DNA of 64,000 nucleotides from contig CAMPDV010002330.1 of NCBI GenBank assembly GCA_946699065.1, positions 1-64,000 of the forward strand. The letters are read 5' to 3'. The translations under genes and the position numbers were made by a program. The first letter of the stretch is position 1. Each line of letters starts with the position of its first letter. Shown here one piece after another: positions 27,021 to 51,770 of this stretch. The notes beneath the pieces are model-generated. The model was not told the origin of the DNA and searched no databases. It was given only the letters and a program-made list of their open reading frames with translations. The stretch comes from Loxodes magnus (taxonomy: Eukaryota > Ciliophora > Karyorelictea > Loxodida > Loxodidae).

Positions 27021-27425
27021 ATTTTTATCATTATTTTTCTATTATTCTCTTTCATTTTTACAAAATTTTAGCATTTCCATACTTTATACACTGAACATTT
27101 GCAGTATAAACTTACCATTACTGCACAGAAGGTAATCTCTTATGTTAGCGGTTGTTGTTCTATATCCATTTGGTTACTGAGTCATTATATTTGTTCTTGC
27201 TTAGAGTGTCTAGTGCTTTAAATTTTCTTTTAAGATTTATTCTATTATTGAAATTCTTCCTTATATTTGCTACAGAGATGGGTTTAGAACTATTTCACAT
27301 AGAGTTTTAAAATTTTAAAATTCTTAAGTATTTATCTGTTTAATCTAAATTACTTACTCTATTTTATTAATCATTTTAATTTAAGCAATTTCTTAAAAAG
27401 ATAAGGAGCATAAAATAAGAAAGGA

Positions 27426-28690: not shown

Positions 28691-30985
28691 AATTTACTAT
28701 GCTAGGAAACAAAAAAAATAAAAATGAGCAATTACCCAACAACAATTAATAGGAAAAAGAAAAGAAGAAGAATAGAATAGATAAGAAGAAGGAAAAGATA
28801 GATAATAATCGGAAAAATATAAAAAAGGGGAAATAACTAATAATGAAGTGAATATGGAAGCAGAGAATGATAGGTAAGATGAAAGAAAGATGGAGTAGGA
28901 AGATGAATAAAAAGAAGAAAGTGATGAAGAGGAAGCAGACGAGATGGGTGAAAAAGAAGAATAAAAATAAGTCATAAAAATAGGGACAGCAAATGTAAGG
29001 GGAGTTAGAAGTGCAAAAGAGGCACTAGCCAAATTAATGACTCAAAAAGTATCCACATAATGGTAATATAAGTGATTTAGATTGAAGACTAAAAGATATG
29101 TGTAATATAGCAGTATATAAAAACTTAATAAATGTCTGGTCAAAAAAAGGGAAAGGAGTAACATTCTATATAAGAAACGACATATGTAAGAAGATCAAAG
29201 AATATAGAATGAAGTAAACCAAATGACGCTTTTTGGAGGACCGAGAGTGATGGTCATTGAAATAAGAAGAAAACTGGCAGTAATAAATATAAATGTACCT
29301 GTGGCAAATTACAACTAATAATATGAACCATTCTATAACTTAGTGAACGAATTCAAATTTTAAGCAACAGAAAAAGTACTTGATGTAATGATCATAGGAG
29401 ATTGAAATGCTTACATAGAGTAATTTACAACCAAAGAAAAAAAACTCAGCTGTTAAGAGAATGTTACAGTTCATGGAACAGAATAATTTAATATACTTTG
29501 ATCCAATTTAAATAGGTATTTTCGTTCACTAAAGCAATGAATATATAATAGATTACTTTTTAATTGAAGAAATAATGTGAGAAAAGGTGATAAAAAGTGA
29601 TTTTCATTACTCATATGTAATAGGGGACCACAGACCTGGTATTATAAAGATAAAGATTGGTAAAGAAGTTAGAAAACCATAAAAGGTAGCAAAAAATAAA
29701 TTACCTACTATTAAAGAAAAAAGAGATCTAAGAAAAATTTGAAAGATTTATACAAAAAAATATCTAAGAAGAAGAAATTGAAAGCCTAAACGGCATATAG
29801 ACTTACAAATGATGAAAAAAAAAGAAATAAGAAGGATCTCAATGGCATGTGGAACAGTTAAAACATAAAACTTTAAGATATATAAATACTCAGAAACAAC
29901 AAAATATTGCAATAAAATTTTCAGAAAATACAGCAAACAATTAAAATAAATGATAAAGAACAACGAATTTATAAATGAAAATCAACAAAACTAAAAATAT
30001 AGAGAATACCAAAGAATAAGACAAGAGTAAATTTAATAAAGAAAAAAGATAAAAAAACTAACTCAACCTATTTATAGACAATGCAAATAAAGGAAATCTG
30101 ACAGAAATGTGGAAGAAACTAAAAAACTTACTTAATAGAAAAAATAATTAGTGAGTACCCTTATCAAAAGAAGATGTTAAGACTTTCAGGAACGAATGAT
30201 AGCAGTTATATGAAGTTGGCGTTAATACGATACCAACTAAATTCTTAATCAAGAGACAAATAGTGGTAAACGAATATGAAATTTGAGAAAAAATTAATTA
30301 ATTGGCGAAATGAAAAGCAGAAGAACTGATGAAATTTAAGTAGGAACAATTTTAGCTGGAGGGAAAAAATATATAGAAGTAACTTACAAAATGATAACTA
30401 AGATGATTTAAGAGGGAGTAATACCTTAAAAGATGAAACAACAATACATAATTTTAATATACAAAAAAGGAGGTTAGATGAGCCTGATGAACTATAGACC
30501 AATCTCTTTATTGAATCATGCTTTGAAAGTTGAAGACGCATTAATTTTCTAGCAATTCTAAGGATATCTTCAAAATGATGAAGGCGAATACTAATATGTT
30601 TTCAAAAAAGGAAAATCATGTGCACTATAAATCTTCAATCTAAGAACAGTATAGAAATGGACAATGCGGAACAAAAAAGATTTATTTGTAATATTTGTTG
30701 ATATTAAGAAAGCTTATGACTCAGTGCAAAGAAAGAATATATGATAAATCCTAAACGATCTAAAGTACAAGAATAGATAATTAAACTGCTAGCAAACTAC
30801 TACTGTGAAGAAGAAATTAAACTGAAAATCAATAATTAAATAGCAAAATCATTCGCAACAAATAAAGGACTAAAACAGGGAAACATAAAGTCGCCAAGAC
30901 TATTTAACTTGATAATATTTATTTGTATAGTGGACTTTTAAAAGAAAAGAAGGAAAATTAAAATAATATCTCAAAAAATTCTATA
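28691..30985 (+). pseudogene. LINE ORF2: apurinic-like endonuclease and front half of reverse transcriptase
   Basis: An acidic, Q/E-rich linker precedes an endonuclease/exonuclease/phosphatase domain. That domain shows IGTANVRGVRS (28979), KGKGVTFYIRND, a VMVIEIRRKLAVINI strand, IIGD-TGA-NA (29397-29408; GDWN expected) and GDHRPG (29623). The RT follows: VIPQKMKQQYIILIYKKGG, NYRPISLL (30490), FVDIKKAYDSV (30694) with the first catalytic Asp, and LKQGNIKSPRLFNL (30870). The sequence then degenerates into A+T-rich DNA before the YxDD motif, so the enzyme is truncated. There are several frameshifts. In-frame TGA falls at places where LINEs have Trp (after AYDSVxRKNI at 30742; after IEEIM at 29578). 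It would nick target DNA and copy its RNA there. It cannot act as it stands. Confidence 0.92.
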
Positions 30986-31480
30986 AAAGTTAATTTATTT
31001 AAATTTGGTTTTCTAGCATCATTTTTTCTTGATTGAAAAAATTACTCTCATTAATCTACTACTACAAGCATAATATTTATTAAAAATAATCTTCTTTTAG
31101 AGTTAAAAATGACATAGCCAAATTAAACATTTTATAATTGACATTATTTAGAAAATAAGTTTTATATGATTAACCATTGTTTGAGTAAAGCTCAGTGGAG
31201 ATTTTATATCAATCATCACTAAAACTAGATCCTAAAATAAGATATATCATTTCTTAAAAGCTAAAAAAGGCTTGTCTGATTTACAGAAATTAAGAATTGG
31301 CAAGAGTAAACTCTTAATAAGACGAATTAAATGAATTTCTACGTATAAAAGCAATTTTATTCAAAGAAAAAGTTACAATGGTAATTCAAATTGCCATATT
31401 TGTATATGATTAATGTTAAATTTGGCTCTTAAAGTTAAATAAAGTTTGAATAATTTTCTTAAAAGACGTTTAACGTTAGA
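30986..31480. other. A+T-rich spacer after the LINE break
   Basis: The RT frame is lost here and no further RT motif is found. Nothing else is supportable. This is probably an insertion or deletion boundary. Confidence 0.5.
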
Positions 31481-31612
31481 TTCCGGTCATCGGTGCTTTT
31501 TAAATAGGCTTTCCTTCCTATCTATCGGTATTAGGAGTAAGCATGATTGACATGAACAAATTACTTTCTTTTCCATTTTCATCAGTGGGAATCGTTTTAT
31601 TTCAAATTAGGC

Positions 31613-32163
31613 TCAATCTCTCAACAGCGGTCCGAATCTTTTATTGCTCTTATCTAAACACTGACTATCGTTATTGGCATTCAAACTTGATAGCTGGTTT
31701 ATGGATAGGACTGAGGAGGGAGCAGAATGATGTTGTTTTGCTGGTATTCTTTCATCATAAATGCTGGTTACAATCGCAAATCGTGGTCTTGCATACATAC
31801 TGGATATTCTTTTACTCGCTATCCTTTGTTGTCTGACCAAGTGAGAATTTTCATTCTACAGACAGACCAGAGTTGAAGTCTTTCTGATAGGTTATCTTCA
31901 TATATACTCTGATCATAGACTGATTGAATTTCCCCTTCACTGATCGTTGAAAAGAAAAATGAGCAAGTGGCCCTACTTCAGTCTCAATTTTGATAATAAA
32001 AACAGTAGGGTTGCACTGTATAAAAATTAACAGTCAAAGTGGGGCTGATAACACGATCCAAATAGCTTTCACTGTATTCGAGAGCATAACATATAAAGAG
32101 GAATTCATTACTGAAGTTAAAAAGTTGAGGAGTTCTAACATTAAAAGTTCTTATTAATCCCCA
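31613..32163 (-). pseudogene. Higher-G+C coding remnant, unassigned
   Basis: A block with clearly higher G+C than its surroundings. On the minus strand three successive frames read naturally. The first is FNVRTPQLFNFSNEFLFICY and LEYSESYLDRVISPTLTVNF (32163-31990). The second is IIKIETEVGPLAHFSFQRSV and FNQSMIRVYMKITYQKDF (about 31985-31850). The third is RIASKRISSMYARPRFAIVT down to NKRFGPLLRD and TGA at 31613. The hydrophobic/aromatic first part and Ser/Arg-rich C-terminus suggest a surface or membrane-associated protein, but I recognise no family. It could be a captured host-gene fragment or part of another element. Two frameshifts are needed, so it is a pseudogene if the assignment is right. 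The ORF at 31543-31836 on the + strand overlaps it and is probably a shadow. Confidence 0.4.
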
Positions 32164-32463
32164 AATTTCTTCAAGTTAATACAAAATTATGTGTAAGAGA
32201 AAACGCTCATCTGATATCTTCGTCAAACGAAATTCTTTTAATATTTAACTCTTAAACTATTTTATTTCAGAAGTAAATACTAACATTATAAAAGATCTTT
32301 TAAGTTTTTTTGTTAAATTTAAAAAAGAGATAATTTAATTTGTTAATATTTATAAATTTTTATTACTAAAAAGCTACAAGAGATAAATTTAATTTTATAT
32401 AGAATTTTTATTTTCTTAATTACTTTTTCTGATTTTATTTTAATTAAGATTAGAAACAAAAAA

Positions 32464-33391
32464 ATGGAAGACTAAAGGAAGGTATTCACCAACTTGTCAA
32501 AGGTAGAGATGAAAATTGAAGGAGCTGAGCAAGTTACGACCTAACACTAGTAGCAAGTAACCTTCAAGCCTTCCTTTAAGCACCCTTATACTTAACTAGA
32601 TACCCCTCCAACCGCTGAAAAGCCTAAAAAAATATAAAAAATAAATACCAGAGGTCAGGGAATACTAAACGGCTAAGTCGGAGTAGCAAGAACAATCTGA
32701 AGTAATAGAAGGATAATTACCGAACTTAACCAGGAGATGGGAAGGCTGAAAGCCCAAACTGAATATGCTATGAAACTATATAATAACGGGCTGGCTCTAA
32801 ACTAGAAAATCCAGGTCCGCTTTGGGAAGGAAGTCTAGGGACTTAGAGATGAAGTGAAAGGCCTTAGAGAATAGCTAACGGAGCATCTCGAGAAGTCAGA
32901 CAAAGACCAAGAATAGCTATAATAGCAAATAATAGCTACTATAATGATGGAACTAGAAGAGAATGGGCGTTGCTTACCTAATTCTCCTTCTCCCGCAAAA
33001 AACCAGTAAGCCAAGTCTCAGAAATAATGCTACCTATGTGGCAGTGCTTGGTACCTCTATAAATAATGCAAAACTTTTGTTGAAAAATAGAGAAACTACT
33101 GGAGAATTTAAATCTATCAGGAGCAGTAAGCGATAAAGAAATATAGACAAAAGATACTAAATTTAAGAAGAATGCAAAATCACCTCTACTGCGATCCTAG
33201 CGGGAGAATATACAAGAGGAAACTTCAACCTTAGACAGATTTTACCTCGTACAGAAGACTACATCTCCATACGAAGCTTACTGTTAGATGACCCAAGTCA
33301 CTTTGGCTATTATAACTCACCGGAAGGAAAACCGATAACCCGCCGAAAGGCAGCAACTGAAGTAAAAAGGTTTTTTAACAAATATTCCTGA
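32464..33391 (+). mobile_element. Solo ORF1 (gag-like) unit, family h, best preserved
   Basis: ATG 32464 starts MEDQRKVFTNLSKVEMKIEG. After a frame-shifted Q/P-rich part comes a strong coiled coil (LNQEMGRLKAQTEYAMKL and KEVQGLRDEVKGLREQL). The zinc knuckle at 33028-33069 reads CYLCGSAWYLYKQC, with the CX2CX4HX4C spacing and His replaced by Tyr. The C-terminal region reads ILPRTEDYISIRSLLLDD and ITRRKAATEVKRFFNKYS and ends cleanly at TGA 33389-33391. Frame changes occur twice. Composition is more G+C-rich than the neighbours. A short repeat of ATAAG units follows at 33409-33430. This is an RNA-binding LINE ORF1 with no RT beside it, probably a non-autonomous unit. Confidence 0.85.
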
Positions 33392-33408
33392 CTATTTCAT
33401 TAATTTAA

Positions 33409-33430
33409 TTAAGATAAGATAAGATAAGAA
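33409..33430 (+). repeat. Short (ATAAG)n tail after the family h unit
   Basis: Three to four AAGAT/ATAAG units immediately after the ORF1 stop. Short simple repeats at the 3' end are typical of several non-LTR retrotransposon clades, so this probably marks the 3' end of the element. Confidence 0.55.
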
Positions 33431-33439
33431 AATTCTATA

Positions 33440-34535
33440 TATTTTTCTAATGATATTCAAATTTAAATAAAAAGTTTGGTTATAGGTTCAGCTAAAAAAT
33501 TATTATCACTAAAAACCAATTTATAATTATATACAAGTATAAAATTGAAATTATTTCTTTGATTAAATCTTAAATATTAATGAAGTAAAAATTTAGAATA
33601 TTGTTTATTTAATAAATAATTAGAAAATAAAAAAATTGATTTTGTCACATTTTTTATGTGCATAGGATTTCTTAGAAAAAGAGTTAGTAATTGTCTTTAT
33701 AATACAAAATATAAAAATTTTAAACCAAATGTAAGTAATTTAAATTTTTTTAGTTATAATACGACTGATTTTTATCAATAGGCTAAATCAATATTTTCAA
33801 GATAATATTAAAAATATTTAATAAAAAATTAAATTAATTTTTAATTTTTTTAATTTTAAATTCAAATATAAAATTTTTTAAATATAAAAAATATATTTTG
33901 GATAATAAATTTTATATTTTAGAAATTTTCGATAAAAAACACAAGAATTTATTAATATATTCTTACAAAAATATTTTATCTTTATTTTTATAATGCTGAT
34001 GGGAGTTAAAAAATTAGCGTATAAAATAAATAATAATTTTTGTTTTTAATATTTTTTTAAATAAATGTCTATTAAATAAATAGAAAATGTTTATAGATTT
34101 TTAAAGAAAATTGATGAATTATCGAAATAAAGAGAAATTTTTTTAAATATTTTTTTCAAAACAGGGTATCAGTAAAAATTAATAAAAAAATGATTTATCA
34201 CTAAAATTATAATTTAGACTTCTATAGAAAATGATTTTTTCAATTGTTTATACAAAAATGTTTAAATATATTATACATTTAGATTTTAAGATTCTTTATA
34301 TTATTATATTATATATTAAAATGAGCAAAAATTACTTTCTCCCAATGAAACTTCGAATTTTATCAGAATATGTAATGCTCTAAGCTAAATGATTAAGGAA
34401 TTCTATTACTTCTTTATAAATACATTTTAGTCTTTCTTTGAAATTTTTCAGAAAAGTTAAATTTAAATTCAAAAGTTTAAAAATAGATATAAGCACAGAT
34501 TATCAAAATAGCTTTGATAAGTTATATTTTGATAA
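33440..34535. other. A+T-rich stretch, no supported gene
   Basis: No conserved frame or motif is visible between the family h unit and the left part of repeat copy 2. Confidence 0.6.
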
Positions 34536-35066
34536 TCATTTATAAATATAAAAAGAAATTATTTATTTATTAATTAATATAGTTTTCCTATAAGGGATAT
34601 GAATAAAAAATTGAGAACAGAAGTTAATTCTCCCTGCTGTTTAATAAAAATGCTCGAAAATCTAGTTTTGGCGAGATTAATAGCTCGAATTTCTCCAGGT
34701 TTTCTTTTCTTTGGCTTGTGGTCTTTGATTATTCTCATCTTTCTTGATTTTATAAATTGATTCACTCAGACTGCAATACATTCTGTTCAATCTGTCTTTC
34801 TCTTTTTATCCTCTTTTTATCTTGAATCCAATAGTTTTACTTTTCTGTTGAAATTTGAACACTTCTGATATAGATGTCATAAGCTTCTAAAGCAGAAAAA
34901 CTTCTTTCAAATCTTTATCAGCTACTCATTTTAAGATTGTTTTTTTGGTTCCACGACCATTGACACTGTTTCGTTGTTAAACCGCTTTATTCTTGATTTA
35001 ATTACTGTAATTCTTATTCTCATAAACTAAATTAATAAAACTATTTATTTTTTTAGAAAAAAATCC
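34536..35066 (-). pseudogene. Basic Q/K-rich ORF spanning the repeat edge, unassigned
   Basis: With the ciliate code this minus-strand frame is 177 codons long, bounded by TGA at 35067-35069 upstream and ending in TGA at 34536-34538. It has one internal TGA at 34926-34928. The protein is hydrophilic and lysine/glutamine-rich (for example FKIKRGQKEKDRLNRMY and KTWRNSSYQSRQNQIFEHF), and base composition is less A+T-rich than the surroundings. The style resembles the ORF1 (gag-like) proteins in the rest of the window, but I see no zinc knuckle, so this is only a guess. Its start lies inside the long repeat, its end outside the part visible in copy 1. Confidence 0.45.
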
Positions 35067-38000
35067 TCACTTACTTTTATTATTTCAGAATTATTTTTAT
35101 AAAGCTACTCAGAGTTCTGAGTTCATTTACAAATTTACTAAATTCCAATAGATTTTCTATTGCTTAGATTTATTATAAATAATTTTTGTTTCTTATGAAA
35201 TCTTTTTATTTTAAAAGAATTTTATTTAGTCTTTATATCGAAAAAATACTATTCCGAATCAGATTAGATATTATTAAAAATTAAATCTAAATATTTTGGT
35301 ATAAAAAAAATATAACTTTGATTTAAAAATTAGGATTTTTAATCTTTTTTCAACCATTAAATTTAATTTTAATTTTAATTTTTATTTAAAAGAAAAAATA
35401 AACGCCAAACATGAATCAATACAAAATAATTTTTCTTACTAAAATTATTTCTTCGACCCCATTATTTAGATTAATAAATAAATTTCATATAAGAGTTCTT
35501 AAATAATTTAGTATTTTTTAATTTTGATCTCTTTTATAGATAAAAAACCATATTCACAAAAAATTTTCTTTTTGTTTTTTTAATGAAAAACTATAAAATA
35601 AATAAAGCATAAAATACTAATTAAGAGCAGTATTTTTATTTTATAAATTTAATTAACAACTTTTACGTTTTAAATAATAAGCATCATTTTAATTATAATT
35701 TTCTAAATTTTAATCAATAGCAATACAGATTAAATTTTATTCTATTTTAGATTTCTTATTTAATATTGATTAATTTCAATTTAATTAACTAATTATTTTT
35801 TATTAAGTAATTATTAAGCTTTCATTTAGGCTTATCGGAAGTTCTAAGATTAAGATCCTTTAATCTCACTTTTTTAATAGAAATGTAGTTTTTTATTTAT
35901 TTAATTTCAATTTTACAATAATTTAAATAATTAAATTTGCTTTTTTATTTTATTTTTTAGTTTTAATTTAATTAATATATTAAATTTTAAGTTAAGTAAA
36001 ATAATTTAAAACATAAATAATAATAACTATTATTATTATTTTTATTAATATGTATTAGACACTGAATCATGGCTTATTTTCTAATGTTTTTAGTAATCTA
36101 TTTTATAACATATGCTTATATATTATCTGCTTCCCAATTTATGCCTATTGGACTCATCCTTTATTGTTCTTAATAAAATTACTATTTATAAATATTACAA
36201 GCATTTATTTTTATGCAATCGCGAGTTGCTCATTAATACTATCGAATCTTATCTACTTTACTTTAATCAACTTCTCTATCCTAATCACCTACCTTATCCC
36301 ATAGAGAAAAGTCACCATTTATCCTCGTCTATCCTCTTGTATTGTCAAATAAATTTTAAATCTAAGCATAAAATGTATTAATAATTTTTCTTAGGAACAA
36401 TTTTTGAAACTTTTAATCAGTGCTTAATAAGTTTGAAGGAAATATGTGATTAAGAAAAAAATATTTAAGTATCAATTATAAGTTTTAATTCCTTTTTTGT
36501 AACTTTTACTTGATTGTATATAATGAAAAAATATTTATTATATTAAGAAATGCTATTAATTATAAAGATATCATATTGTAATTTTTGCTTTTTATTGCTA
36601 AAAATTAAACAGAAAAACTTTATTATAAATTAAAATTGATAAAATGATTTTATTTTAAAGTAAATAAGCTAAAAGTTACTATAGTTATAATTACTTTTAC
36701 TCCTTTTTTAAATATTTTATTTTAAGTTCAGCTTATTATATTTATAGCATGCTGGATTTAATTATAGAATATATCTATAATAGTCTAAAATTTAAGCTAA
36801 TAAAACTATTTTGGACTAATTTTGCTATGAGCTTATAATTGACTATCTTCAAATTTAATTTATAATTAAATTAGGAATTTCTTATTTTACATATACTTTA
36901 AAAGGGAACTATTATTAGATATCATTTTATCTTTGCTATATATTTTTCAATTAAATTATAATAAATAATAAAGATTAAGAGTTAGTATACAAAATTTATA
37001 AATTTTAGATTGTAAACTATCTATAGCAGTGCTTTAAAAATAGTTAGAAATATAATAAAATAAAGGAATTTTAAAGAATGTAAAATAGATATTTAATAAA
37101 AGTGAAAGTAATTAAATTAAAATATTTTAAATTACATAAGTGAATATTATAAATGTTTGCTATTTAAAAATTGAAATTTAATATATTTAAAAGCATTAAT
37201 TAAATATAAATATTGAAATTATTATCACTTATGCTTATAAAATGAAATTTGGTATTTGCAAAGGGGTGTTTAAATAAGCTACATTTATTAATAGTTTTTT
37301 TCATTTACATTATACTATCATAAACATAAATATGCTTCAAGTTTTAGAAACATTGTGATGAAATGTAATAATAAAAATTATAAATCTTCAAAATATTAAG
37401 ATAAAAGTTTAGTATTTATCATGGATTAATTAATTTTTTCATAAATTTTGATAATCAAGCTCATGGAATAATATTAATATATAAAATTAACCTATAGGAA
37501 AAAATTTATGTAAAGAGTTTTTAGAAGAGTAGTGATTTAATATTTATTAAATTGTTAGCCTATATAAGCATTATTTATATATTTTTATTATGATCAAAAT
37601 GTTTAATAAACATTTAATTTAATATCTTTCCAAAAATTTTAAAGATATTTTCTCAAGAATAGGTATTTACTTTTTAAAAGTTCTTTATTTCTTGATTATA
37701 AGGACCAAAATAACAAAAACATTTCTAATAAGAAAATATACATTTTTCGTTTAAATAAAAATTGATTTTCAAATGCTTTACATAATATACTCTTTTTTAA
37801 TATCTTTAAATATTTATTAATTCTTAAATTCTTACAGAAATTTATACTCATCCATTAAAATTTATCCGAAAGTAAGTTATTATTGTTCTTCTTTTAAGAA
37901 GTTTAATTCTTATAAAATCCTTAGATTAAATCTCAATACAACTAAGATTTTCTAATTTTGCTTATTTATTACCTTAAGATTTTTTAGTTTGCTTAAATAA

Positions 38001-40920
38001 TTATTGATTTAATTTTTGAATAGCTTATTATATTTCTACTTCTATATTTTAATAATTAAAATAAAATTCAAATATCATATTATTATTGAATTTTTCATCA
38101 AGTAAACTTGCTTAACAAATTTGTTCATTTCATTATAATTTATCTATTAATTAAACTTCCAAAAATTAGATTAAGCTTATTCTTAATTCTTAAAGTAAAA
38201 ACTGGATATAAAATCTTATTATCAACTATAATATCTTATGAAACGTAGAGGTGTATACATCTTAAAAAGATGCTTATTATTCCTTTAGCTATTGCTCACA
38301 AAATTTTATAATATTTGTGAATTTCTTTTATTTTAAATTTAATATATCTTCATCCTCAAGATCTTTAAATTTAGCTTCTTTTAGAATTTATTTCATTAAT
38401 CAAATTCCTAAAATTATTTTCTATCTCTTTCAGAGCTCAAAACTACAAATTAATTATATAATATTTAGATCCAATAAGCTATTTCTTAATTTAAAGATTA
38501 CAGATGCTTACTTAAAGCCAAATGTTATAGAAATAAGAAAATAAGTTTAAGCTTTTATTTTAACTTAGCGATGGAATAAATTATATAATTTATTTATAAA
38601 ATGCTTATTATTATAGAGGTATAAAGTTATACTTATTTAAAGTTTATTTAATTCATACCTATTAATAAGCTTCTATAATCATACTCAATAATACAGCTTG
38701 CTTTTCATTATATCCAGTTAAAGTAGATTAATCATTATATTTTAATTATCGCTTAAGTGTAAGATTATTAGTAGACCTTAGTGTACATTTTATTTATGCT
38801 AAATCTTTAAGCATAAATTCGTTATTTATACTTAACTGTCTTTTAAAATAAAGAATGATTTTTTTCAATATGATAAGCTAGTTAAACTATTTCTTAAGTG
38901 CCATTTAAAAAGAAATGCTTTGCTTTTATTATAAATTAAAATAAAAGAGAAATCGAGTAAATGATAAGCAGGTGATTTAATATATAGAATCTAAAAAATC
39001 TTGTGCCTTATATCAAAAATTTCAATTTTTATCGAAGGATTGCAATTTTAAACGTTTTTACTTTAATCTTTCTTGAATTCCCAGACTTAAAATCTGTAGT
39101 ATTTAAAATTAACAAATTTCTTTATTTGTTTTTATTACAAAACTTCTTAGATAAGTTTCTGGGTATGCTTTTCTACAAAACTTTTATTGGTAAAAAATTT
39201 AATACTTTTAATGTTCCAATTCTACTTAAAATCTTTAGTTTAAGTTTAATTTCTAATTGATTTTATGATTTTTGCACTTTTGCTAGGCTGTGCTTATATA
39301 TTTCTATTTATATAAAACATATTTTCTAATTTTTTTCTTTTTTCTTCTTTAACTTAAAAGATTTGCTTCATTATTCAAAATCCTTTATTCAAGATATTCT
39401 ATAAGGAAAACTGTTTGACTTATCTCTTTAGAATTACCAAAAATTGTTCTCACTGTGTTTTCCTTGCTAGTAAAAATTCTAATGTCCTTTTGGACTAAAA
39501 TTTCCACTAAATATTTACCTTATTATTATTAAAAGCAACTTAAATAGTTATTAAATGTGCATCAATCTAGAAAGTTATTATTTATATATGTCTAAACCTC
39601 TTATTTCTAATTTTGAACGCTTTAGTAGATTTATACATTATTAACTCACAAATTTGTTTAAGAAGAATCGCGAAACTAGAAAAATAATTTAAAATATTTA
39701 CTATCATAAATTATAGAAATTTAAATGTCTAAACAGCATAGAGCATTAGTTATTATAGGGATATTTAAATTCTTTTTAAGCATGATTAATATATCAAACA
39801 CCTTAAATGAAAAAGCTATCGATAAGAATTAATTATAGCTTAGCTTTAGTTTTAAATCTTTAATGATTAAAATTGTTTAGATATAACTAACAGTTAAAAA
39901 TTTGATATTAGTATTAAATTAATATTTAAATTAATATTATTAAATAAGGAAGTAAATTAAATAACTTTTATATTAACTAATAAGAAAATTATTCAATCAC
40001 TATTATATTTTATTTTAGCTTGTAAATATGGAAATATTTATAGATATTTAAAGTTAGGAAATAAAGAATATGATTGCTAATATATTTCATTTCTTAATAT
40101 TATATATATTACTTTTATTTTTTAATTCAGTAAAGTGAATTTTAGAATAATTAGTTATAGAAATATTTTTCACTACAATTAATAAAAAAACTAGTAAATT
40201 TTAATGCTATATAAATCAGCTAAACTATATCTTTATATAATTGTTTTAAATTAAATTAAGTAATTAAATGCTAATATTACATTTAAGATTCAAATAAATA
40301 CATTAGTTAATCAAATATGCTAAGAATATTGTCATAATTTAATTTATATTTCAAGATCTTATCTTCTAACCTTTTTCTTTTTATGCTATTATCTTTTGCA
40401 TAATTTTATTTTGATTAAGATTAGAAAAAATATGGATTGATGTTATATTCTAATTTATAAAATGAGTTAATTAACCTAAGTAAAATTAAGATCATCGAAA
40501 ATTATGGAAAAAGGAAGAAAAAATTATTATTGGAAAACATAATATATTTTGATATGTCTTTTAATGAAGTTAAAGTCTAAAAGATTTAAAAAGAAAGCAA
40601 CTAATAAATTTACAAACTATATAGTAATTTATTTATAAGCTGAATATTTCAAGTATTTTAGGATCAATAATTGTTTCTTTTAATAGCTACTTGATAACTG
40701 TAATCTTTTTATCTATTGTAGATTAGATTAATCATTTTATTTGTATCTTTCTTGTAGTATCAATTTCTTCTTATATTAACGTGCAAAAATTTTAAATATC
40801 CTATTATAAAAGAAATATGATGAAGAATATTAAAAATTGCTTTAATTTTAACTTATTATTCTCTTGCTTTGTCAAAGTTCTATGAATTTTTCTTAATTTA
40901 CTATATAAATAATATAAATT

Positions 40921-41687
40921 ATGTTTACCTTAAAAAAACTTCTGATTCTCGAAGAATGAACTTTGAAACTTAAGAAAAAAGTGATGAAAGAAATAAAGAA
41001 AAATGCATTATAATCAAAAGGAATCAATTTTTCATCAAAAGTAAAGTTTTTATCGGAAATGTAGAGATTGGAAAAACTTAAAATAAAATTGACCAAAAAA
41101 TCTAAAATAAACTAGAAAAATGTAAAAATTAATCTAAAATTTTGAAGAAACAATCTACAATTAAGGGAAAAAATCAGAAAATTAATAATAATAATGACAA
41201 TTAAAATAATGAATTATTAATAATACGTTATCAGTTAATCTAAAATAATTTAGTAGCAGAACAATAACTTTATGAGTAATCATAATGAATATTTATTAAT
41301 AGCAAAATATGGTTATAGAAAATGAATAAATTAATTTAATTTATTAAGAAATTAGGCGAGGAGAAAAAACTAACATAAAGTTACAAAAAAGAAATAGAAA
41401 AATTGGAAAAAAGTTTTAGAGAAAAGTCTGAAAAATCAATCAAAAAATGCTACTACTGTAATTAAATTTACAATATTTTACGACAGTTTTGAGTCTTAAA
41501 ACAAACTAAGAAAAAGAGAAGAATGAAGAACATGAAGAAGTCTAAATAAATTCTGAATAACGGTAAAAGGTACTTATAAATAGAAAATTTTATAAAGAAC
41601 TAATTATAGTTATTGATAACCTACCACATATAAAAATGGCAGAAGGTACCTGGTTGAAAGCCCAGGGATCTAAAACTCTCAACATTT
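40921..41687 (+). pseudogene. Decayed ORF1 (gag-like) cassette, family a, copy 2
   Basis: Second copy of the 6148-6915 unit, carried inside the long direct repeat. It shares the same frameshifts, the same degenerate knuckle (C-Y-Y-C kept, His and last Cys lost) and the same TGA in the C-terminal GxKPR motif. The decay therefore predates the duplication. Only isolated base differences separate the copies. Confidence 0.8.
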
Positions 41688-41911
41688 AATTATTTTTTTT
41701 ATATCAATTTTATCTTTGTAACTTATCTTTTGTCTTGTTTGAGTATGTTCAAGCCTAAATTATAAGTTTAACTACTTTTATAAACTTTTAATTTTTAAAT
41801 ACTGAAATAAATAATAAAAAATTATCCCGTTTGATGTTAAACTTTAAGTACTTTGATTAATTACTATAAAAACTACAATAATATTTTGTATTTCATATTT
41901 AATTACATTTT

Positions 41912-42321
41912 TCAAAAATTGTTATTTTTTGTAACTTTAATTATCTTTTATTTATTTTAAATACTCAAAGAAATATTGCTTTAAAATTATAACAACCTCT
42001 AACATAATATGACAATTCAGCATCTACTTTCATATTATTTTCATTATATTTTTCATTATAGTATTAATATTGTGAAATTTTTGTATATTGAATAATCAAG
42101 AAAATTTATTTATCTCAACTCCAGAATTTTATGCTTTTTTCTTGTAAGTTCTTAAATCTTTGAATTTTCAAGCAATCAAGCCATTTAATTAAAAAAATGC
42201 AAATTTCGATTCTTTTATGTGTTAAAAAATTACTGAAATAATTTGATTCTTACAAAAATTTCTCTTTTTAGCAAATTTTAGCCTTTATATTTTAATATTA
42301 CGGCAGAATTTTTCGATTCAT
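41912..42321 (-). pseudogene. Second copy of the 7140-7550 ORF, frameshifted
   Basis: Same ORF as 7140-7550 inside repeat copy 2. The span is 410 rather than 411 bases because one C is missing near 42012, which shifts the frame. The start ATG at 42321 and the stop at 41912 are both still present. This makes copy 1 the better version. Confidence 0.45.
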
Positions 42322-42373
42322 AAATAAATACATTTTATAGCTTATCTAAAATGATTTTTTAGAGAACATGATA

Positions 42374-43940
42374 ATCTTTTTTAAAATTAGCAGATTTTAG
42401 ATTAAAAGATTTTTACTCTATGTAAAGATCACTGCTAATTTACAAAGAAAAATACTTAATTGTCACTTATTAAAACATTTTAGATAAAATATAATAATTA
42501 TTTAAATTAAATTGTCTTAATTAAATAATTAAATCAATTTTAAGAAAAAATAAAATGTAATAATTTCGAAATATATTAGTAAATAAAATAATCAATAAAA
42601 TCTATATTATTAGGATTTGGAAAAATTAAATTAAATTAAACTAAAAATAACTAAATTAAGGCATCAAATATTTTTTTCATATTTTTATTTTTTTATGAAA
42701 ACTGGGTGACGATGTCAAAATATCTATAGTAACGATAAATATTTCTATAAAAAACATTTTGTTTGATTGAAAACGAAGTAATTATATATAAGAATCAAAA
42801 AAGAAAATTAGATGCTTGCTTAACTAAAGAAAAATATAATTAAACAAATCTGTTGTAAAATTAATTATAAAAGTGTTATTAAAATCATTTTTCCATTTTT
42901 AATATACAACAAAAATGTATTTGAAATAAATTTAAATTTGAAAGAAAAAATTATTTTAAACTAGCGTGAGTTCTTTTATTTCTTATTCAAATTTATAAAC
43001 GAAATAATATTTTATTAGAAAAAAGCAGATAAACAAAATTTTAATCAAATCATAATTAAACTTCATATGGCAAGAAAAAAATATAAATAAAAGCATTAAT
43101 TAAATATAGTTTGCGCTGATTTAACTCATTTTTTTACTTTAAAATTTGAATCAAAATTATGTATTATTTTTATAAAAAAAATTAAAATAGTAAAATTTAG
43201 TATTAAATTTTAAATAACAGAAATTTAATAATTTATATTTTTCTTACTTAAAATAGATTTAACTATCATTATATTGAATTAAAAAAAGAAAAATGATAAC
43301 CCTTATATTTTCTTAATATTAGCTCAATTGCTTAAAATTTTAAGTAAAATAAATTAGAGAAAGAAAATTTTGTATTAAAATATAATTTTATTTTTAATTT
43401 TTATTTAAATATCCAATTTTTAACTAATTTATGTCTATTATAATTATTAATTCAGATAAATAAATAAAATTTAGTTTTGAATATAAAGTAATTATGATTC
43501 GATTTTTCAATTTATATTTTTGAAAATTGATATAATAAGTTTTATAATTTGTTTCCTTTTCTGATTTTTATTTCAATTAATTTGATTTTTTATTAATTTA
43601 TATTATATTATTTTGCTTATTTATAATATTTTAATATTTTTAAAATTTTATTATCAAATATTATTCAATTTTCCTATTTTTTAGAGTTTTCCACTCTGGA
43701 TGCTTTTCGTTTCTTTAATAATGATATTCATAATCCTTTTACTTATAAAAAACTATTGTTTTAATTTTCTTTTAGTATAAAATAATGTCTTTTTTGTTTA
43801 AATATCTTTATATTAAAATCAGCTTCTTAATTTTAATTTTTTTTGCTTCTAAATAATATTCAAAATTATAAAAATTAATAATTCAAACTAAAATTCAAAC
43901 CTTTAACTTACTCTCTTTAATCTTTAACCTCTTTGAAATT
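42374..43940. other. A+T-rich stretch, no supported gene
   Basis: Unique sequence right of repeat copy 2. Very A+T-rich, without any frame or repeat that I can support. Confidence 0.6.
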
Positions 43941-43946
43941 TACTTT

Positions 43947-44441
43947 TCAACTTTTAACTATGTTTGCAAATATTTAATGAATAGAATAATTTTTTAAATA
44001 TTTAAAAACAAAAATTCTTTTTGTTAGTTAAAAAAAGAAATGTAACTAATAAATAAGTATATTTATATTTATTTTTAAATAATATGATTCAATCATTTTG
44101 GAGAAATAAATAAAAGTTATTTTTAAGAGTTAAAATATTGGAAAATTAATTATATTATTTAAATTTTTTTCAAATATAACCATTTTTACTATAAATAGAG
44201 ACCAAATACAACAAGTAATTATATAAAGAAAGTACTGTAAAATGAGAAAAGGTAGGATTATTTTTAAACAGTTCACTTATTTTTTATTATATTGACAATT
44301 AACTTATACTTAAATCTATAGAATTTATTTTTTATAGCTATGTTTAAAATTATTTATTTCAATTTTTTCTAATGTAATTAAATAACTTCTAGCTAGTTTC
44401 TTTTGTCTATTTCTACGTATTTTTTTATATTTTTTATCCAT
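43947..44441 (-). CDS. 165-codon minus-strand ORF without internal TGA, unassigned
   Basis: With TAA/TAG as Gln, ATG at 44441 starts MDKKYKKIRRNRQKKLARSY and the frame runs to TGA at 43947-43949 without interruption. The N-terminus is strongly basic. A hydrophobic segment in the middle (LPFLILQYFLYIITCCIWSL and following) could be a membrane segment. The length is within what chance allows when only TGA can stop a frame in this composition, and there is no relative in the window, so I give it low confidence. Confidence 0.25.
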
Positions 44442-44574
44442 TTTTAACAACCATTTTCAATGTATTGATTTAAAAAATTACATAGTCTTTCAAAATGGAT
44501 GAAGCCTAGCATAGTAAATTTTTTTATGTCATTCTTTAATCTTAAAACGTAAAATACCTTTTTCCTAAAAAAAT

Positions 44575-44596
44575 TGAATGAGATCTGAATGAGATC
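44575..44596 (+). repeat. Tandem 11-base direct repeat
   Basis: TGAATGAGATC occurs twice in tandem, with a partly matching third unit following. No function can be inferred. Confidence 0.6.
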
Positions 44597-45131
44597 TAAT
44601 TGAGAATTGAATGAAATTTCTAAAAATCTTTAATTTACAGTGTTGAACTTGGCTTATTCTAAATTGAATTGATACTTAAAACTGGAGATAATTGTCTGAA
44701 AATACTTTGCATTTTCTGAAAATTAATTGAATCTATAGAGTCCTTTGTGCTTAGTTAAAAATTAATAGAAATTAAAAGCAGTTTAAATGAAACAATTTAA
44801 TTTTGAATTTTGCAAAAAATATCTAAGCTCAATCTCTACTGCTTTCTAAGCAATCGAATTCTTAGGCCAGGAATTGGTTAGTAGTGGTTAAATAATACTT
44901 AAAAATAATAGAATTTTTAATAATAATTAACTTTTTTCAGATTAGTGTGTGGAACCTGAAAAATTAAAAATAGCTGATATCAATACAGATTTACTATTCT
45001 AGACAACTGAATATCATGAGATATTTTTATTATGATATATATATAAATCGGCTTCTAAGAAATAACAGAACTTTGAACAAAACATTTAAACAGGAAAATT
45101 CTCTAAAAAATAAAAAAGTGAAAAAATTACA

Positions 45132-45914
45132 ATGAGTGAAAGTGAGGTAAAAGATTGATATGGCGAACATTAACCACTTGGAAATCCAGAATTAAAAAAA
45201 CTTCCGACACAAACTCAAATAGAAATATTATCTAAGTCATTAAAAGAGTTTATGTTTAAAAATAGATACCTCACTGATAAAGTAGAAAAATTAGAAAAAC
45301 TAATAATGTCTTTACTTGAGAAACAATATTAATAATCATAAGAAATAGAAAAAAAACTAGAATAAAGTATTCTTTAAATTTAATAATAAATTCAGGTTAC
45401 ACCATTTTCGATTTAACAGAATTAATCAGATTCTATGGAAATAGAAAATGAAGCCTCAAATTAAAATAAACAGTAAACGTTTATTTAAAATAAGTAGTAA
45501 ATTTAAATTAAATAAGTGTTACAGGAATAATAGGTTAAAAGAATAATAAAATGCTACGTGCGCAATAAATAACACCAATGAAAATACTGCTACTAACTAA
45601 GCGAAATTTAAAGAAAGAATAAATAAGATATTTTTAGAAAACTATTTAGGATATATCCAACATAAAGCGGAAAAATTTATAGAAAAAAATTCTTTAATTC
45701 AAATCTTAATCCTTGGAGAAATAATTAGGAACGCTACATGCAAGATGAAGACTATTCAGAATATTAAAAGATGGTGCGCTAATGAAGAGCTACACCGCCT
45801 AACTAAACCTAGTAGAAATTCAAGACAAACTAATGGAGACAAGCTGATAGAATAGGTCAGATGGCTGACTACTAAGGCTTTAACAAAGCTTTTTAACTTT
45901 TAACTTTTTATAAG
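45132..45914 (+). mobile_element. Solo ORF1 (gag-like) unit, family i
   Basis: ATG 45132 starts MSESEVKD-TGA-YGEHQPLGNPELKKL, then a coiled coil (FKNRYLTDKVEKLEKLIMSL and EKQYQQSQEIEKKLEQ) and a very Q-rich stretch. A damaged zinc knuckle lies at 45552-45590, CYVRNKQHQ-TGA-KYC: the second Cys is Arg, one residue is missing, and TGA is two residues after His. After a frame change the C-terminal domain is well kept: FKERINKIFLENYLGYIQHK, IQNIKRWCANEELHRLTKPS and WLTTKALTKLFNF. The FNF-type ending recurs in other units. The next unit begins only about 85 bases downstream. No RT is attached. It is an RNA-binding retroelement protein, decayed. Confidence 0.78.
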
Positions 45915-46000
45915 AAAATAATTGCTAAAGCATCATGTGTATAATTAAATCCATTTCTAATACAATAAAGCATTTTAAAAAAAAAGAATATAAAAAAAAA

Positions 46001-46806
46001 ATGGAACAATCTATTCGCCTTTCCAAAAACTTAACTAGAAACGCAAAAATGAAAGCGGCGAAACAATTACTTAAATAACAAAAACTAAGAGAGAAATCGA
46101 GTTCCTCATCAGAAGGTAAAATTATGATAGGAACAGCTCAGAAGAATCCAGGTAAGATTGGAGAGAATTCAGAACTTTTTTTATAGCTCGATTAAATGAA
46201 AAATAAAATTTCTGAGTATCAAGAAATAATTTACAACCAAGGAGAAAAAATCAGAGAATTAATGAACTTCATAGATGATCAAAATAATGAATTGTTAATA
46301 ATTAGACGTCAGTTAATCCAGAATAATTTAGTAACGGAATAATAATTATACTAATAGTCTCAAACGAACCTTAAATAAAATCAAGACATGATCATTGAAA
46401 AGGAATTAATTTAAAAAGAAGTTGCAGAAAAATAGAAAAATGAAAATATTGAATAAGATTTAATAAAACGAATAAATCAGCTTGAAAAAAAGTATTTTAG
46501 AAAAAACTTTTGAAAAGATAAACCAAACAATGTTGATATTGCAAGTCAAGATGACATTTATTGAAAAATTGTGGTGGCTGAAAACAAATATAATTAAAAG
46601 AACAACTAAGAACGTGAAAGACTCTTAATAGGCTATGAATTACTGAAGCCGGAGTCTATAAAAGAAAAATATTTACTGGAAACTCGGAAGATTTTTAGTG
46701 GTTACCTCCAACGTAAAAAACTTGGTCGTGGTATCCATCCACGTTAAAAAAATGGCAGCAAGAAACTGGTTGAGATTCCAGGCATTGCAAGACTTTTTAA
46801 CTTTAA
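46001..46806 (+). mobile_element. Solo ORF1 (gag-like) unit, family b relative, with (TTA)n tail
   Basis: ATG 46001 starts MEQSIRLSKNLTRNAKMKAA, followed by SSSSSEGKIMIGT and a long coiled coil (YNQGEKIRELMNFIDDQN and ELLIIRRQLIQNNLVTEQ). One frameshift near 46490 in an A run leads to the zinc knuckle at 46531-46572, C-TGA-YCKSR-TGA-HLLKNC. All four zinc ligands with CX2CX4HX4C spacing are present, and two TGA codons sit at positions 2 and 8. The C-terminus reads TWSWYPSTLKKWQQETG-TGA-DSRHCKTF, aligned with GWKPR of the 12712 unit. A TTA/ATT run at about 46808-46826 ends it. TGA occurs six times in the last 100 codons. This is either decay or TGA is sense; the placement suggests Trp. Confidence 0.85.
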
Positions 46807-46829
46807 GTTTATTATTATTATTATTAAAG

Positions 46830-49100
46830 CATTTAAAAATTGAAGATATAGTTCCATATCAAATAAAGATATAAAATAAGGATTAATTTACAAATTAGTA
46901 TGTAATGTCCTAATTCAAAGGTCATAATTTTAAAGGGGTTTAGCTTTTTCTTATTTCTTGAAGAGCTTTGTCATACATACTAAAATCCAGATAAGTGAAG
47001 AGTTTTACGTAAAAATAAAAGAAAATGCAGTTAATATGAATCTTTTGATTTTGGATCTAAAAGAGAAAAAAATAATTTAAATAAAAGGATTATAATCTAT
47101 TAAATCATTATAAATGGCTAATTAAATTTTAGATAAATATTTCCTTTAATAATCAAAATTATATAACTTCAGTAGTTTGTGCATCTTAAACAAAAGTATT
47201 ATAAGGATGTAATATTTAATAATTTACTTAATTTTAAATATTTAATAAATAAAAAAATTAAGAAAGATATTTAGAATAAAAGTTATTTTTGAATATTCTT
47301 ATAAATTAAAAAGAAAAATAAATTATTAAGCAAGAATAAGCTATCAGAGAATTATTCAACAAAATACCAATCTTTTTATTGTCAATAGTAAATAAAATAA
47401 AAATATCAATCAATCATTTAGATTAAAATTCAAATAATTTTGCTGTAAAATTAAAGTCTAAGGAAAATTAAAAATTTTTAAAAGTTAACTATAATCAAAA
47501 ACGAATTAAAAATTTTATGAAAGAGTTTTTGAACAAATATTCAAAAAGATAAAAAAATAAGATTTTACTTTGATTAAAAGAAATTAATTTTTATAAAATT
47601 TAAAAAATTTGAAAAAGCAAATTAAAATTAGACAAAAAAAGGAAAAAATTATAAAAAAGTTAAAATTTAAAAATTTCTTAAAAGCTTTTAAAATTAAGTT
47701 AAAAGTATTATAATGAAATAAATTTCAATAATTAATTATTTTATAATAATTTTAATAATGTAATTTTAGTAATTTATCATTCTTTAATTTTTTCAATTGA
47801 TTAATATCTTTTTAAATACCAAGATAATCATTTGTCACTTTCTAGTTAAAAAATTTTTACATTTATTATTAAAATTTTTTTAATTAAAAATTTTTTCAGT
47901 TTATTACATTTCAAGTAATTTAAAAGAAATAAATCATAACGAAAATAATATTTTTTATATTTAAATGATTGTTTTAATTCCTTTTTCGAGATAAATAAAA
48001 ATATGATTTTTATATTTGCTCTTTAGAAATATTTAATAAGTTTTTTAAATATTTTTATTATTTCTAAATATTTTTTGAAGATGAGAAGTTTATTAAAATT
48101 TTACTTTATTTACTTCCTAGTTCAAGAGCTTATTATAAGTTATATAAGTTGGAATATCTCATTTAGCTTAAAAAACTTTAATTTTTTTGTAATTAACCTT
48201 TATTTTGCTTTTATATTTAAATTTTTTTTGAATAATTACCTTTTTTTAATTATATTGAATTTTAGGCAAATTTATCTATTGCTTTTTATAAAGCAATGTC
48301 AAAAAAGAATATTTGCTTGAGTAGGGAATTTGCATCTTTTAAATTACTTAAATATTAAATAAAGTTTAAATTATTTTTATGAATATACATTTTTATATAG
48401 CAAAATAAAACTTTTTTATTTAAAATTTTTGATTAAACTATAAAAATTCAATAATGCTAGAAATAAGTTTTTTATGATAATACATTTAATTTTTATAACA
48501 GATTTTTTAGAAAATTAAAAAATATAAGTAAGTTAGAAATTTTTGTATGCAAATAGTTTTTATATTAAAGTTATAATTACAATTATAAATCTAAATCTTT
48601 CTAAAGCTTTCAACACTTCAAAAAAATCTTTATGATTAAAATTATTAATTATTATAAATATATTTAGTAAACTATTTTAATGCTTTGTCTCTATATTTAA
48701 TTTTAATCTGTTAAAATTAAATTTTAAATTTTTTAATTTATTTTTTATTTTATTTGTTTACTCATTTTCATCAATATTTTTTAGAATAATATGTAAATAT
48801 ATTTTATTTAATTAAGATTTTTTTTTCTTTTTTCGATACTCTTAACTTAGTCTGAGAAATACCGATTTTTTTAACAATTTTTTGGTGATTATATAATTTA
48901 CATAGCATTTAATTTTAAATTGTTCATATTTCTTACTATAATATTTCGACATTTATGTCAGTTTTTTTTCTTAATTTTTATTATTATATTCTTGCATTTT
49001 TAATTTTATTTATTTCTTTCAATCAAATTTTAATTATTTTTTAATTTTATTTTTTTGTAAATTTATTTAGATTATATAACTTTTTATATTTTTATTAAAA
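46830..49100. other. A+T-rich stretch, no supported gene
   Basis: Very A+T-rich. The hydrophobic standard-code ORF at 48075-48320 is F/L/I-rich, as expected from T-rich composition, and I do not support it as a gene. Confidence 0.6.
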
Positions 49101-49102
49101 AA

Positions 49103-49905
49103 GAAGGAGAACTGGAACAAAGGTTTTCTTATCCAAAAAATGACTGTAGTACTTCTGATCGATCTTTTAGAACCAATAAACGTCAAGCAAGATTTTAAAA
49201 AACTATATTGCAAGATTTCAGAAGATAAATAATTACTGTCCAAAATTAAAAAAGAAGTACATATTTGAATTTCTCATAAGCTTAGATAAGAAATAACTTC
49301 TTGAGGTTTTTATCGACTATATTAATAAAGTAGAGAAATTCGGACATTACATCATGAGCTTATAACAGGACTTACAAGATTACTTCGAAAATAAGAAATT
49401 ACACTCTGAAATTGTGATAAAATAGGATATTATCAATAGGTATTAAGAAATTGAATACAATATTGTAAGATTAAATGAATAATGAAAATAAATGCCCTAA
49501 ATATGAAAATGTCTTTTGATAAATTATAGAAATTAAGCAACAATTAGGAAACAAAAGGAACTAATAATTCTAAAAAAGCAAAAATCTAACGATAATAGAA
49601 GAACAACCCATGTTTAAAGAAAATTTCTTAAAAAAGAAGTGCTACATATGCGGCAGTTAATGTCACCTTTGAAGACGATGTAATCAAAAATTTTAAATTA
49701 GAAATATATTTGAAAATAATTTACTACGTTTTATCCTTCCTCGGATGGTTAACTATGATGAAAAAGATAATTTCAAGACCATTCGAAAAATTTGGAAGCG
49801 AATTTTGGTGAAGCACTTGGAAATCCGATATCCTGTAAAAGGTAATATAATGGGTTATGAACTTAATAAGGGTACACTGCATTAGTCTTAAAATATTTAA
49901 TTTAA
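49103..49905 (+). mobile_element. Solo ORF1 (gag-like) unit, family k
   Basis: The 5' part reads YPKNDCSTSDRSFRTNKRQA. A coiled coil follows in another frame (LDKKQLLEVFIDYINKVEKF, then QDLQDYFENKKLHSEIV and INRYQEIEYNIVRLNEQ). At 49640-49681 there is a complete zinc knuckle, CYICGSQCHL-TGA-RRC, with CX2CX4HX4C spacing, His at 49664 and TGA two residues after it. The frame then stays open to about 49900 (MVNYDEKDNFKTIRKIWKR and LVKHLEIRYPVKGNIMGYEL). This is another RNA-binding ORF1 family without an attached RT. The start codon is uncertain because the 5' part is frameshifted. Confidence 0.75.
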
Positions 49906-49999
49906 TTTAATTTTTAATATTTGATAAATAGGTTCCTTTTAGCAAATATTTAAAAAAATAAGAAAAATAATCTAATTTAATTGAATAATCACCTTGATA

Positions 50000-51195
50000 A
50001 GATTAAGGATGATAATCTCGGATTCTTTTGCATTTTCAGGACTTAAAGAAATTAGAATCTACAATAAGAATTAAAACGATAAAGGTAAAAATTTTAATAA
50101 TTAGAATAGAAATAGATTAATTAGTATAAAGGTTAAATCTTATTTCCATCTATAGAGGAGACAGTCAATTTTATATAATCATAAATGGAGTATAAACTAG
50201 AAGTTTGACAAGCAGTTCATTTAAATTCCTCAAATACTTTAATTCCAATTTCTCATCTCCAGTATCTAATAAAAGTAATTTAATAAAAGAAAATACAATA
50301 ATAAGAAACTATCTAAATTATTAATGAATAGCAGGGAAATATACCTAAAGGAATTGAGGTAAGTAACTATTAATAAAGCATAAGAAAAAAATTTCTCTGC
50401 TATTTTGTTAAAAATGGTATTATTATCAAAGACGCCGGTACAAAGCCTAAATTTACGAAAAAAATAAAAAAGTTATGTTAAAAGAATTATTCTATATATT
50501 AGCAACTTAAATATAAAATGTGGCAATAAGCTGAAATCGACTGTGGACTCCTATAGCTCGAATTCGAGCAAGCGGAGGTGTGCAGTTATTACTGAATATC
50601 AACATTATTTAGAAGCTTTCAGCTTTGAGATCGAAATAATTCCATTCTGATCTCATTCTTCTAACCTTTCTTGAGAAAGATAGGTTTTATATAGCATCCA
50701 TAAGTATGTTGATTATAGATTACAAAGAGATAAATATAAGTTAAATGTGAGTAATATTAGTAAAGAAATTGTAACTAAATTTCTAATGATGGAGTTTCAT
50801 TAAAACTTATTTAATTATTACTATTATAAAGTAATGAGAAAAATATCTCAGAATTCATATTTTGATTTTTCACGCCTCCAGTAAACAGAGGTTGCAAATA
50901 TTCTAGAGAAAATCGGATAAAAATAGGCCCCAAATAGGTACCCACTAAATCGAGAGCCATACCTCTTCTATTTCAAGTTTTTACATCAATTTCTTATTAT
51001 CTTTCTTAAGCTTTTTGGCCTTTTTCAGGTTATCAAATTTATCTTTTATCTTCTAATCATAACTTATTTACTGCTCTAAGGTATAATTAGATTTTCTGAG
51101 GGCATAATATTTTTAAATTTTCTCCTAGGCTTCTTTTCAGAGGAAATAAAATCCAGATTTATTATCTAAGAAAAAAATCTTAATACCTTCTAAAA
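50000..51195. other. Mixed-composition stretch, no gene assigned
   Basis: G+C is higher here than in the A+T-rich spacers, and coding-looking patches occur on both strands, but no motif or conserved frame could be fixed. It contains the perfect 14-base palindrome at 50556-50569. Confidence 0.4.
50556..50569. repeat. Perfect 14-base palindrome
   Basis: GCTCGAATTCGAGC equals its own reverse complement and sits in a locally G+C-rich patch. It could be a hairpin or a protein-binding site, or chance. Confidence 0.5.
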
Positions 51196-51199
51196 TATT

Positions 51200-51770
51200 T
51201 TACAAGATCAAAAAATAGTCAAACTTAAAACTAGAAATAGTAGCAAAAAGAAAACTAACAGTAGAAAATTAGAAGAAAATCAATAAAAATCAGCGCTAAA
51301 TGGAATAAAGAGTTTGATAACGATTAAATGATAATTGAAGAAGAAAGATTTAAGCTTAAATGATAAACGAAAATATATTATTACTGCAAATCTCGTACGC
51401 ATCAGTGAAAAAGATGCTAGAAATTCCCAACTTCAAATAAGAGTCCTGAAATTACTAGAAGAAATTGAAGAAAAAGAAGAAATAACAAAAACTAAAAAGA
51501 GAAAAATTATATTGCAACAAATATGGAGAAATTTTTGAGTAAAAATATATCAAGCGTCCCTTAGGTGAAAGAAAAAATCAAAGATAAAATGCATAGCAAT
51601 GATAAGTTTTATTAGAAATTCTTATATTTTTATATCTAGTCTCTAGAACAATCTAGAAGTTGGTAAGAAAGAGATTGAAACGCCTCCAAGAGCGCCATAT
51701 ATTTGATTTTGCCCTTTCTTATCTAAATATTATTTAATAATAATAAGTAAAATTAAACTTTTAAATTCTT
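51200..51770 (+). pseudogene. ORF1-like unit, family c/l, module copy A start
   Basis: The frame reads NKEFDNDQMIIEEERFKLK-TGA, then a variant knuckle at 51376-51417, YYYCKSRTHQ-TGA-KRC, almost the same as the one at 14403 (YYYCNSVTHLLKRC). The first Cys is Tyr in both; TGA here occupies the place of Leu there. In the same frame further on, SRSWQERD-TGA-NASKSAIYLILPFL is matched by PRSWQERDYNTYKNAIYLILAFL (written here in two parts: PRSWQERDYNTY and KNAIYLILAFL) at 60.7 kb, so this frame was coding. A second frame (QLQIRVLKLLEEIEEKEE) is also conserved at 60.5 kb. The unit opens the larger duplicated module. Confidence 0.6.

Follow-up and report, generated by a model that had tools for sequence, protein, structure and literature searches.

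In-frame TGA in LINE-like retrotransposons and tubulin genes of the ciliate Loxodes magnus and its very probable reading as tryptophan

The 64,000-nucleotide stretch analysed here (the window; contig CAMPDV010002330.1 of Loxodes magnus, C2330:1-64000) carries a copy of a long interspersed nuclear element (LINE) in which TGA occurs in frame. The original prediction had cited 11 codons of this element and other repeats in the window, ten TGA and one TGG, as lying at conserved tryptophan positions; all 11 are present at the coordinates and in the contexts that it gave. Based on a comparison with element copies and host genes across the assembly (705,730,643 bases in 7,843 contigs), the nuclear code of L. 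magnus almost certainly reads TAA and TAG as glutamine, and TGA as tryptophan within genes and as a stop at gene ends. The use of TGA as a sense codon in this species is already published. The window features that bear most directly on this reading are the following, with site counts that include the window copy and ORF denoting open reading frame:

27404..30917, plus strand: LINE copy comprising ORF1 with a zinc knuckle, an endonuclease and the start of a reverse transcriptase (RT), delimited by blastn of copies and tblastn domain frames
29403..29405, plus strand: TGA after IIGD in the endonuclease; TGA in 17 of 20 copies, TAA in 2, TGT in 1, TGG in 0
29578..29580, plus strand: TGA after IEEIM; AGA in 14, GGA in 3 and TGA in 2 of 19 copies
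30742..30744, plus strand: TGA after AYDSVQRKNI in the RT; TGA in 32 of 33 copies, CGA in 1, no TGG
51406..51408, plus strand: TGA two residues past the knuckle histidine of an ORF1; TGG in 18, TGA in 2 and TGT in 1 of 21 copies

The left coordinate of the LINE copy is the start of the fetched relatives and not a proven left end; at 30917 all 17 relatives L012-L028 drop out of the alignment and L009-L011 continue. Translated in three frames, the window copy had no Pfam match at E <= 0.001, and because this copy is split across frames, copies from elsewhere in the genome were used. One of these, L012, matches Exo_endo_phos_2 (PF14529, E 1.2e-10) and RVT_1 (PF00078, E 5.3e-23) in different frames, and a protein search with its RT retrieves LINE-1 and R2 chains. 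With an APE-type endonuclease and an RT in one element, it is, judged from its domain content, a non-long terminal repeat (non-LTR) retrotransposon of the LINE type. In this it resembles the L. magnus elements described in the available portion of PMC11441545, which are also non-LTR elements with an endonuclease and RVT_1 and are present in many copies; that text gives ∼2,700 RVT_1 copies for a macronuclear assembly of 706 Mbp. A second, diverged LINE RT (28-34% identity) lies at L025:7636-8321 and carries TGA in the motif SKDD-x-KN-x-RPISL.

The RT core provides the clearest view of how TGA is used in these elements. Every one of the 98 matches listed for the L012 RT protein search contains in-frame TGA, TAG, and TAA, counts to which the caveat applies for TGA that L012 leaves its relatives' frame past approximately residue 276. 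A codon table was compiled from the first 276 columns of 19 copies (12 diverged copies fetched for the purpose and seven earlier ones), from which cells with less than 50% local identity to L012 were removed; 4,767 cells out of a maximum of 5,244 remained. These cells contain 97 TGA codons, 94 of them in six columns picked by a majority of TGA plus TGG. The 109 cells of the six columns comprise TGA (94), TGG (8), TAA (3), TGT (2), CGA (1), and TTA (1) with no TAG, and the other 4,658 cells hold 88 TAG, three TGA and two TGG. Two of the six columns contain TGA in some copies and TGG in others (23 TGA and eight TGG together). As plain triplets on the plus strand of the window, TGA (1,030) and TAG (1,088) are nearly equally frequent, so the lack of TAG at tryptophan columns is not an effect of composition. 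The ratio of nonsynonymous to synonymous substitution rates (dN/dS) in the RT core has a median of 0.17 (range 0.11–1.03 in 107 pairs).

The individual window sites agree with this pattern in part. At 51406, where the window copy was compared with 20 relatives at 73–91% identity, TGG in 18 of 21 copies marks a true tryptophan column at which the window copy has TGA. This site and those at 29403 and 30742 stand among the tryptophan positions originally proposed, whereas the proposal does not hold for 29578, which lies in an arginine column, or for the GWKPR sites, which are probably not protein coding (see below). The observation that TAG is missing from such positions is borne out at each tryptophan column compared, with 0 of 20 at 29403, 0 of 33 at 30742, 0 of 21 at 51406, 0 of 44 in the tubulins and 0 of 109 in the RT core.

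Host genes show the same use of TGA. The Pfam tubulin model has 150 matches in the genome, of which 116 contain at least one internal TGA by hand count; all 150 contain internal TAA, and many contain TAG. Twenty tubulins were fetched, 16 picked for a listed TGA and four without, and together with two alpha-tubulins these made a set of 22 genes whose N-terminal domains were aligned with TGA masked. At the column that we take to be W21, the 22 genes have TGG (10), TGA (10), TTG (1), and TAT (1), and at the presumed W103 column they have TGA (13), TGG (4), and phenylalanine or tyrosine codons (5). Over both columns there are 14 TGG, 23 TGA and no TAG in 44 cells, with 45 TAG elsewhere in the alignment. 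Thus, 23 of the 31 tubulin TGAs fall in these 44 cells and eight in the other 4,551 (Fisher p = 2.5e-43 for 44 of 4,595 cells, a value that is indicative because the genes are paralogous). The expected concentration of TGA at tryptophan columns is therefore found in both tubulins and the RT core. Comparison of a beta-tubulin with two TGAs (L061) and a paralogue with TGG throughout (L075) gives 107 synonymous differences and 12 nonsynonymous ones, indicating strong purifying selection on the gene that carries the TGAs. Internal TGA, which was to be looked for in conserved host genes, is also found in the tRNA-synt_1b family, where two of four matches contain one each. As to the other two reassigned codons, the RT core contains 216 TAA and 88 TAG against 68 CAA and 28 CAG (totals, not a column-by-column comparison), and by their in-frame counts here and in the tubulins TAA and TAG are to be read as sense codons.

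TGA is also placed where genes would be expected to end. All 15 alpha-tubulin loci examined share a TGA at one position, directly after the conserved acidic C-terminus, and ahead of this acidic tail each locus has three TGG and no TGA (0 of 45 tryptophan codons). On this evidence TGA also serves as a stop codon, and internal TGA in tubulins together with terminal TGA in alpha-tubulin gives the codon two meanings in one genome. A cluster of tubulin matches lies on contig C64:618992-934095, and the 12 excised from there are alpha-tubulins with TGA at the conserved end. The LINE has a comparable feature: TGA is found at the end of ORF2 in 16 of 16 aligned copies (17 were given; L012:5111-5187 and like places), where it precedes an apparent hairpin, judged by eye, and a (TTTA)n tail, and it may be the true stop of the element.

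Of the competing explanations, decay survives best. Under this reading, which the original prediction took as its default, TGA would be a stop codon (NCBI table 6), and its in-frame occurrences would be nonsense mutations carried by dead copies of the retrotransposons. Frequent frameshifts in the copies, TGA in two of 19 copies at the 29578 arginine column and terminal TGA in alpha-tubulin are all in keeping with it. Against this, mutation in dead copies does not account for the same TGA being kept in 32 of 33 copies at 30742 and 17 of 20 at 29403, for TGA at six columns of an RT with low dN/dS, for the lack of TAG at those columns although it is an equally easy product of TGG, or for TGA at tryptophan columns of tubulins on which purifying selection acts strongly. 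Decay thus fails at the key sites and is very improbable, and the alternative that the original prediction had named, TGA as tryptophan as in karyorelict ciliates, is supported.

A retrotransposon-specific programmed readthrough, or a selenocysteine-like recoding at TGA, would fit the large excess of TGA over TGG (94 vs. 8) at the six columns of the RT core and the absence of TGA from the interior of alpha-tubulin in 15 loci. It is hard to credit, however, given that internal TGA also occurs in other tubulins and in the tRNA-synt_1b matches, and that TGG replaces TGA at shared columns, which selenocysteine would not predict. That TGA encodes only tryptophan and another codon terminates genes agrees with the tryptophan columns of tubulin and RT but scarcely merits consideration beside the TGA directly past the C-terminus in every alpha-tubulin locus and the statement in the portion of the species paper available that TGA is the sole stop codon (PMC11441545).

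Several points nonetheless weigh against reading TGA as tryptophan within genes and as a stop at their ends. Frameshifts are common among the LINE copies examined, as seen in their tblastn domain frames, so that any single TGA may still be damage, and the column at 29578, predominantly AGA and GGA, demonstrates that an isolated TGA can be no more than a mutation. Four of the six RT columns have no TGG in any copy examined, and the LINE-1 chains shown have no tryptophan at those RT columns that their alignments cover; tryptophan at these four would hence follow from the code. Picking the six columns by their TGA and TGG majority makes them circular for their own count. The exonuclease chains shown have phenylalanine at the 29403 column, where TGA would be read as tryptophan by virtue of the code, and the suggestion that LINEs have a near-invariant tryptophan at 30742 was mistaken in that the LINE-1 ORF2 chains shown carry leucine there, leaving this TGA as a probable sense codon, presumably tryptophan. 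In the host genes, the fetched tubulins are biased by the choice of 16 of 20 for their TGA, and the 15 alpha-tubulin loci are alike, lie on two contigs (12 on C64 and three on C237) and had their ends located by seeking the first TGA past the conserved tail. The loss of the GWKPR sites as tryptophan positions counts on the same side.

The remaining cited sites are as follows:

45579..45581, plus strand: TGA two residues past the histidine of another knuckle, identified by motif only
49670..49672, plus strand: TGA two residues past the histidine of a third knuckle, identified by motif only
13231..13233, plus strand: TGA at knuckle position 2, identified by motif; tyrosine there in most relatives of the 51.4-kb family
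46534..46536, plus strand: TGA at knuckle position 2 in a young repeat family, identified by motif; 40 listed copies 95–100% identical
13440..13455, plus strand: probable 3' stem-loop with TGG at 13445 in the loop
46766..46781, plus strand: probable 3' stem-loop of a second family with TGA at 46771 in the loop
6878..6893, plus strand: probable 3' stem-loop, third copy, with TGA at 6883 in the loop

The GWKPR sites at 6883, 13445, and 46771 each lie in the loop of a CTGG-N8-CCAG sequence, of which a fourth copy is found at 41655, approximately 30 nt upstream of (TTA)n or a T-rich stretch. GWKPR was consequently set aside as a protein motif, the sites being probably non-coding and part of a 3' stem-loop of the elements. 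Support from the fold is weak (-4.3 kcal/mol): the four inner pairs are kept in nine of nine sequences with G-U changes only, and among the three outer pairs two show changes on both sides and two are broken or gapped in two sequences. The window is itself repetitive. It contains a direct duplication of ∼6.9 kb with 99.2% identity (702-7617 vs. 35470-42387), and positions 1-682 match 34800-35485 at 98.5%. Stretches of 0.3–8 kb also recur at 96–100% identity on C1555, C7840, C1146, C5374, and other contigs, which suggests haplotypes or segmental duplication.

The means by which TGA could be decoded was sought among the transfer RNA (tRNA) genes. A tRNA-Trp pattern was found at 126 places, and all 100 of those listed have the anticodon CCA. 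In 98 of these 100 the top pair of the anticodon stem is broken (A.C or U.C): C67 has 48 in a tandem array with an A.C top pair, and C148 has 50, of which 49 are in an array and one is apart, with a U.C top pair. The two copies on C110 have a full anticodon stem. ARAGORN identified eight of eight fetched examples as tRNA-Trp(CCA), Rfam scored all eight as tRNA, and for L076, L078, and L079 the Rfam alignments mark the top pair as broken. The original prediction had looked to a tRNA-Trp with a UCA anticodon, for which a single 29-place version of the pattern gave no match, a search that would not detect a UCA tRNA differing from it in sequence. The arrays represented by L076-L079 span C67:482309-491186 and C148:155450-168953 with periods of about 187 and 241 bp. 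They were considered as a possible specialization, but tRNA genes of another kind (74 bits vs. 58–60 for tRNA-Trp) are also regularly spaced (63 of 42,786 candidates were scored), so that a special role does not follow from the array arrangement.

These genes closely resemble a known type. Blastocrithidia, Condylostoma, Blepharisma, and Loxodes have a tRNA-Trp(CCA) with a 4-bp anticodon stem according to the available text of PMC13092985, in which the shortened stem of the Blastocrithidia and Condylostoma tRNA increased UGA readthrough in reporters. The L. magnus genes found here share the CCA anticodon and the broken top pair and differ from the systems described there in their tandem arrays on C67 and C148 and the two full-stem copies on C110.

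The code itself corresponds to NCBI table 27, which the accessible part of PMC11441545 assigns to L. magnus, with TAA and TAG as glutamine and TGA as tryptophan or stop by context; in that account nearness to the poly(A) tail governs termination and coding TGA is depleted upstream of the stop. For the karyorelict Parduczia, PMC4967479, as far as its available text goes, likewise gives TAA and TAG as glutamine and models such codons as acting as stops through proximity to the transcript end. In-frame TAA and TAG, TGA at tryptophan columns and TGA at gene ends are alike here and in these published accounts, and no difference was found in the features compared with the parts of the two papers available.

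Taken together, we propose that TAA and TAG would be translated as glutamine and TGA as tryptophan within coding sequences, with TGA terminating translation only where the 3' end of the messenger RNA is close. The LINE-like retrotransposons in the window would follow this host code, with TGA as their main tryptophan codon. Decoding would probably be by tRNA-Trp(CCA) with the shortened (4-bp) anticodon stem, and eRF1 would outcompete it only near the poly(A) tail; the dependence of termination on poly(A) proximity and the part played by the short-stem tRNA in decoding are both drawn from the papers and not from the present data.

A further and rather unlikely idea is that, with no stop available far from the poly(A) tail, the LINE may have been forced to fuse ORF1 and ORF2, and that its almost exclusive use of TGA for tryptophan may have made it dependent on the short-stem tRNA-Trp. 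In the close relatives L019-L021 the ORF1 knuckle, the linker and the first 186 endonuclease residues share one frame across in-frame TGAs, which is the only hint for fusion; in other copies ORF1, linker and endonuclease are in differing frames. With regard to dependence, TGA makes up 94 of 102 TGA and TGG codons in the LINE RT core and 23 of 37 in the TGA-picked tubulins. If true, reliance on the short-stem tRNA-Trp would act as a check on LINE expression.

The context-dependent code of L. magnus means that in-frame TGA alone is not evidence of a dead gene. Reading frames of this assembly need to be read with table 27, and TGA-bearing retrotransposon copies should not be scored as dead on TGA alone. 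Of the papers that a literature search listed, none concerned, by its title or the opening of its abstract, TGA use in karyorelict retrotransposons or tRNA-Trp arrays in Loxodes. To the published code the present analysis adds a small direct test that karyorelict retrotransposons obey the ambiguous code of their host, and the observation of purifying selection on TGA-rich reverse transcriptases.

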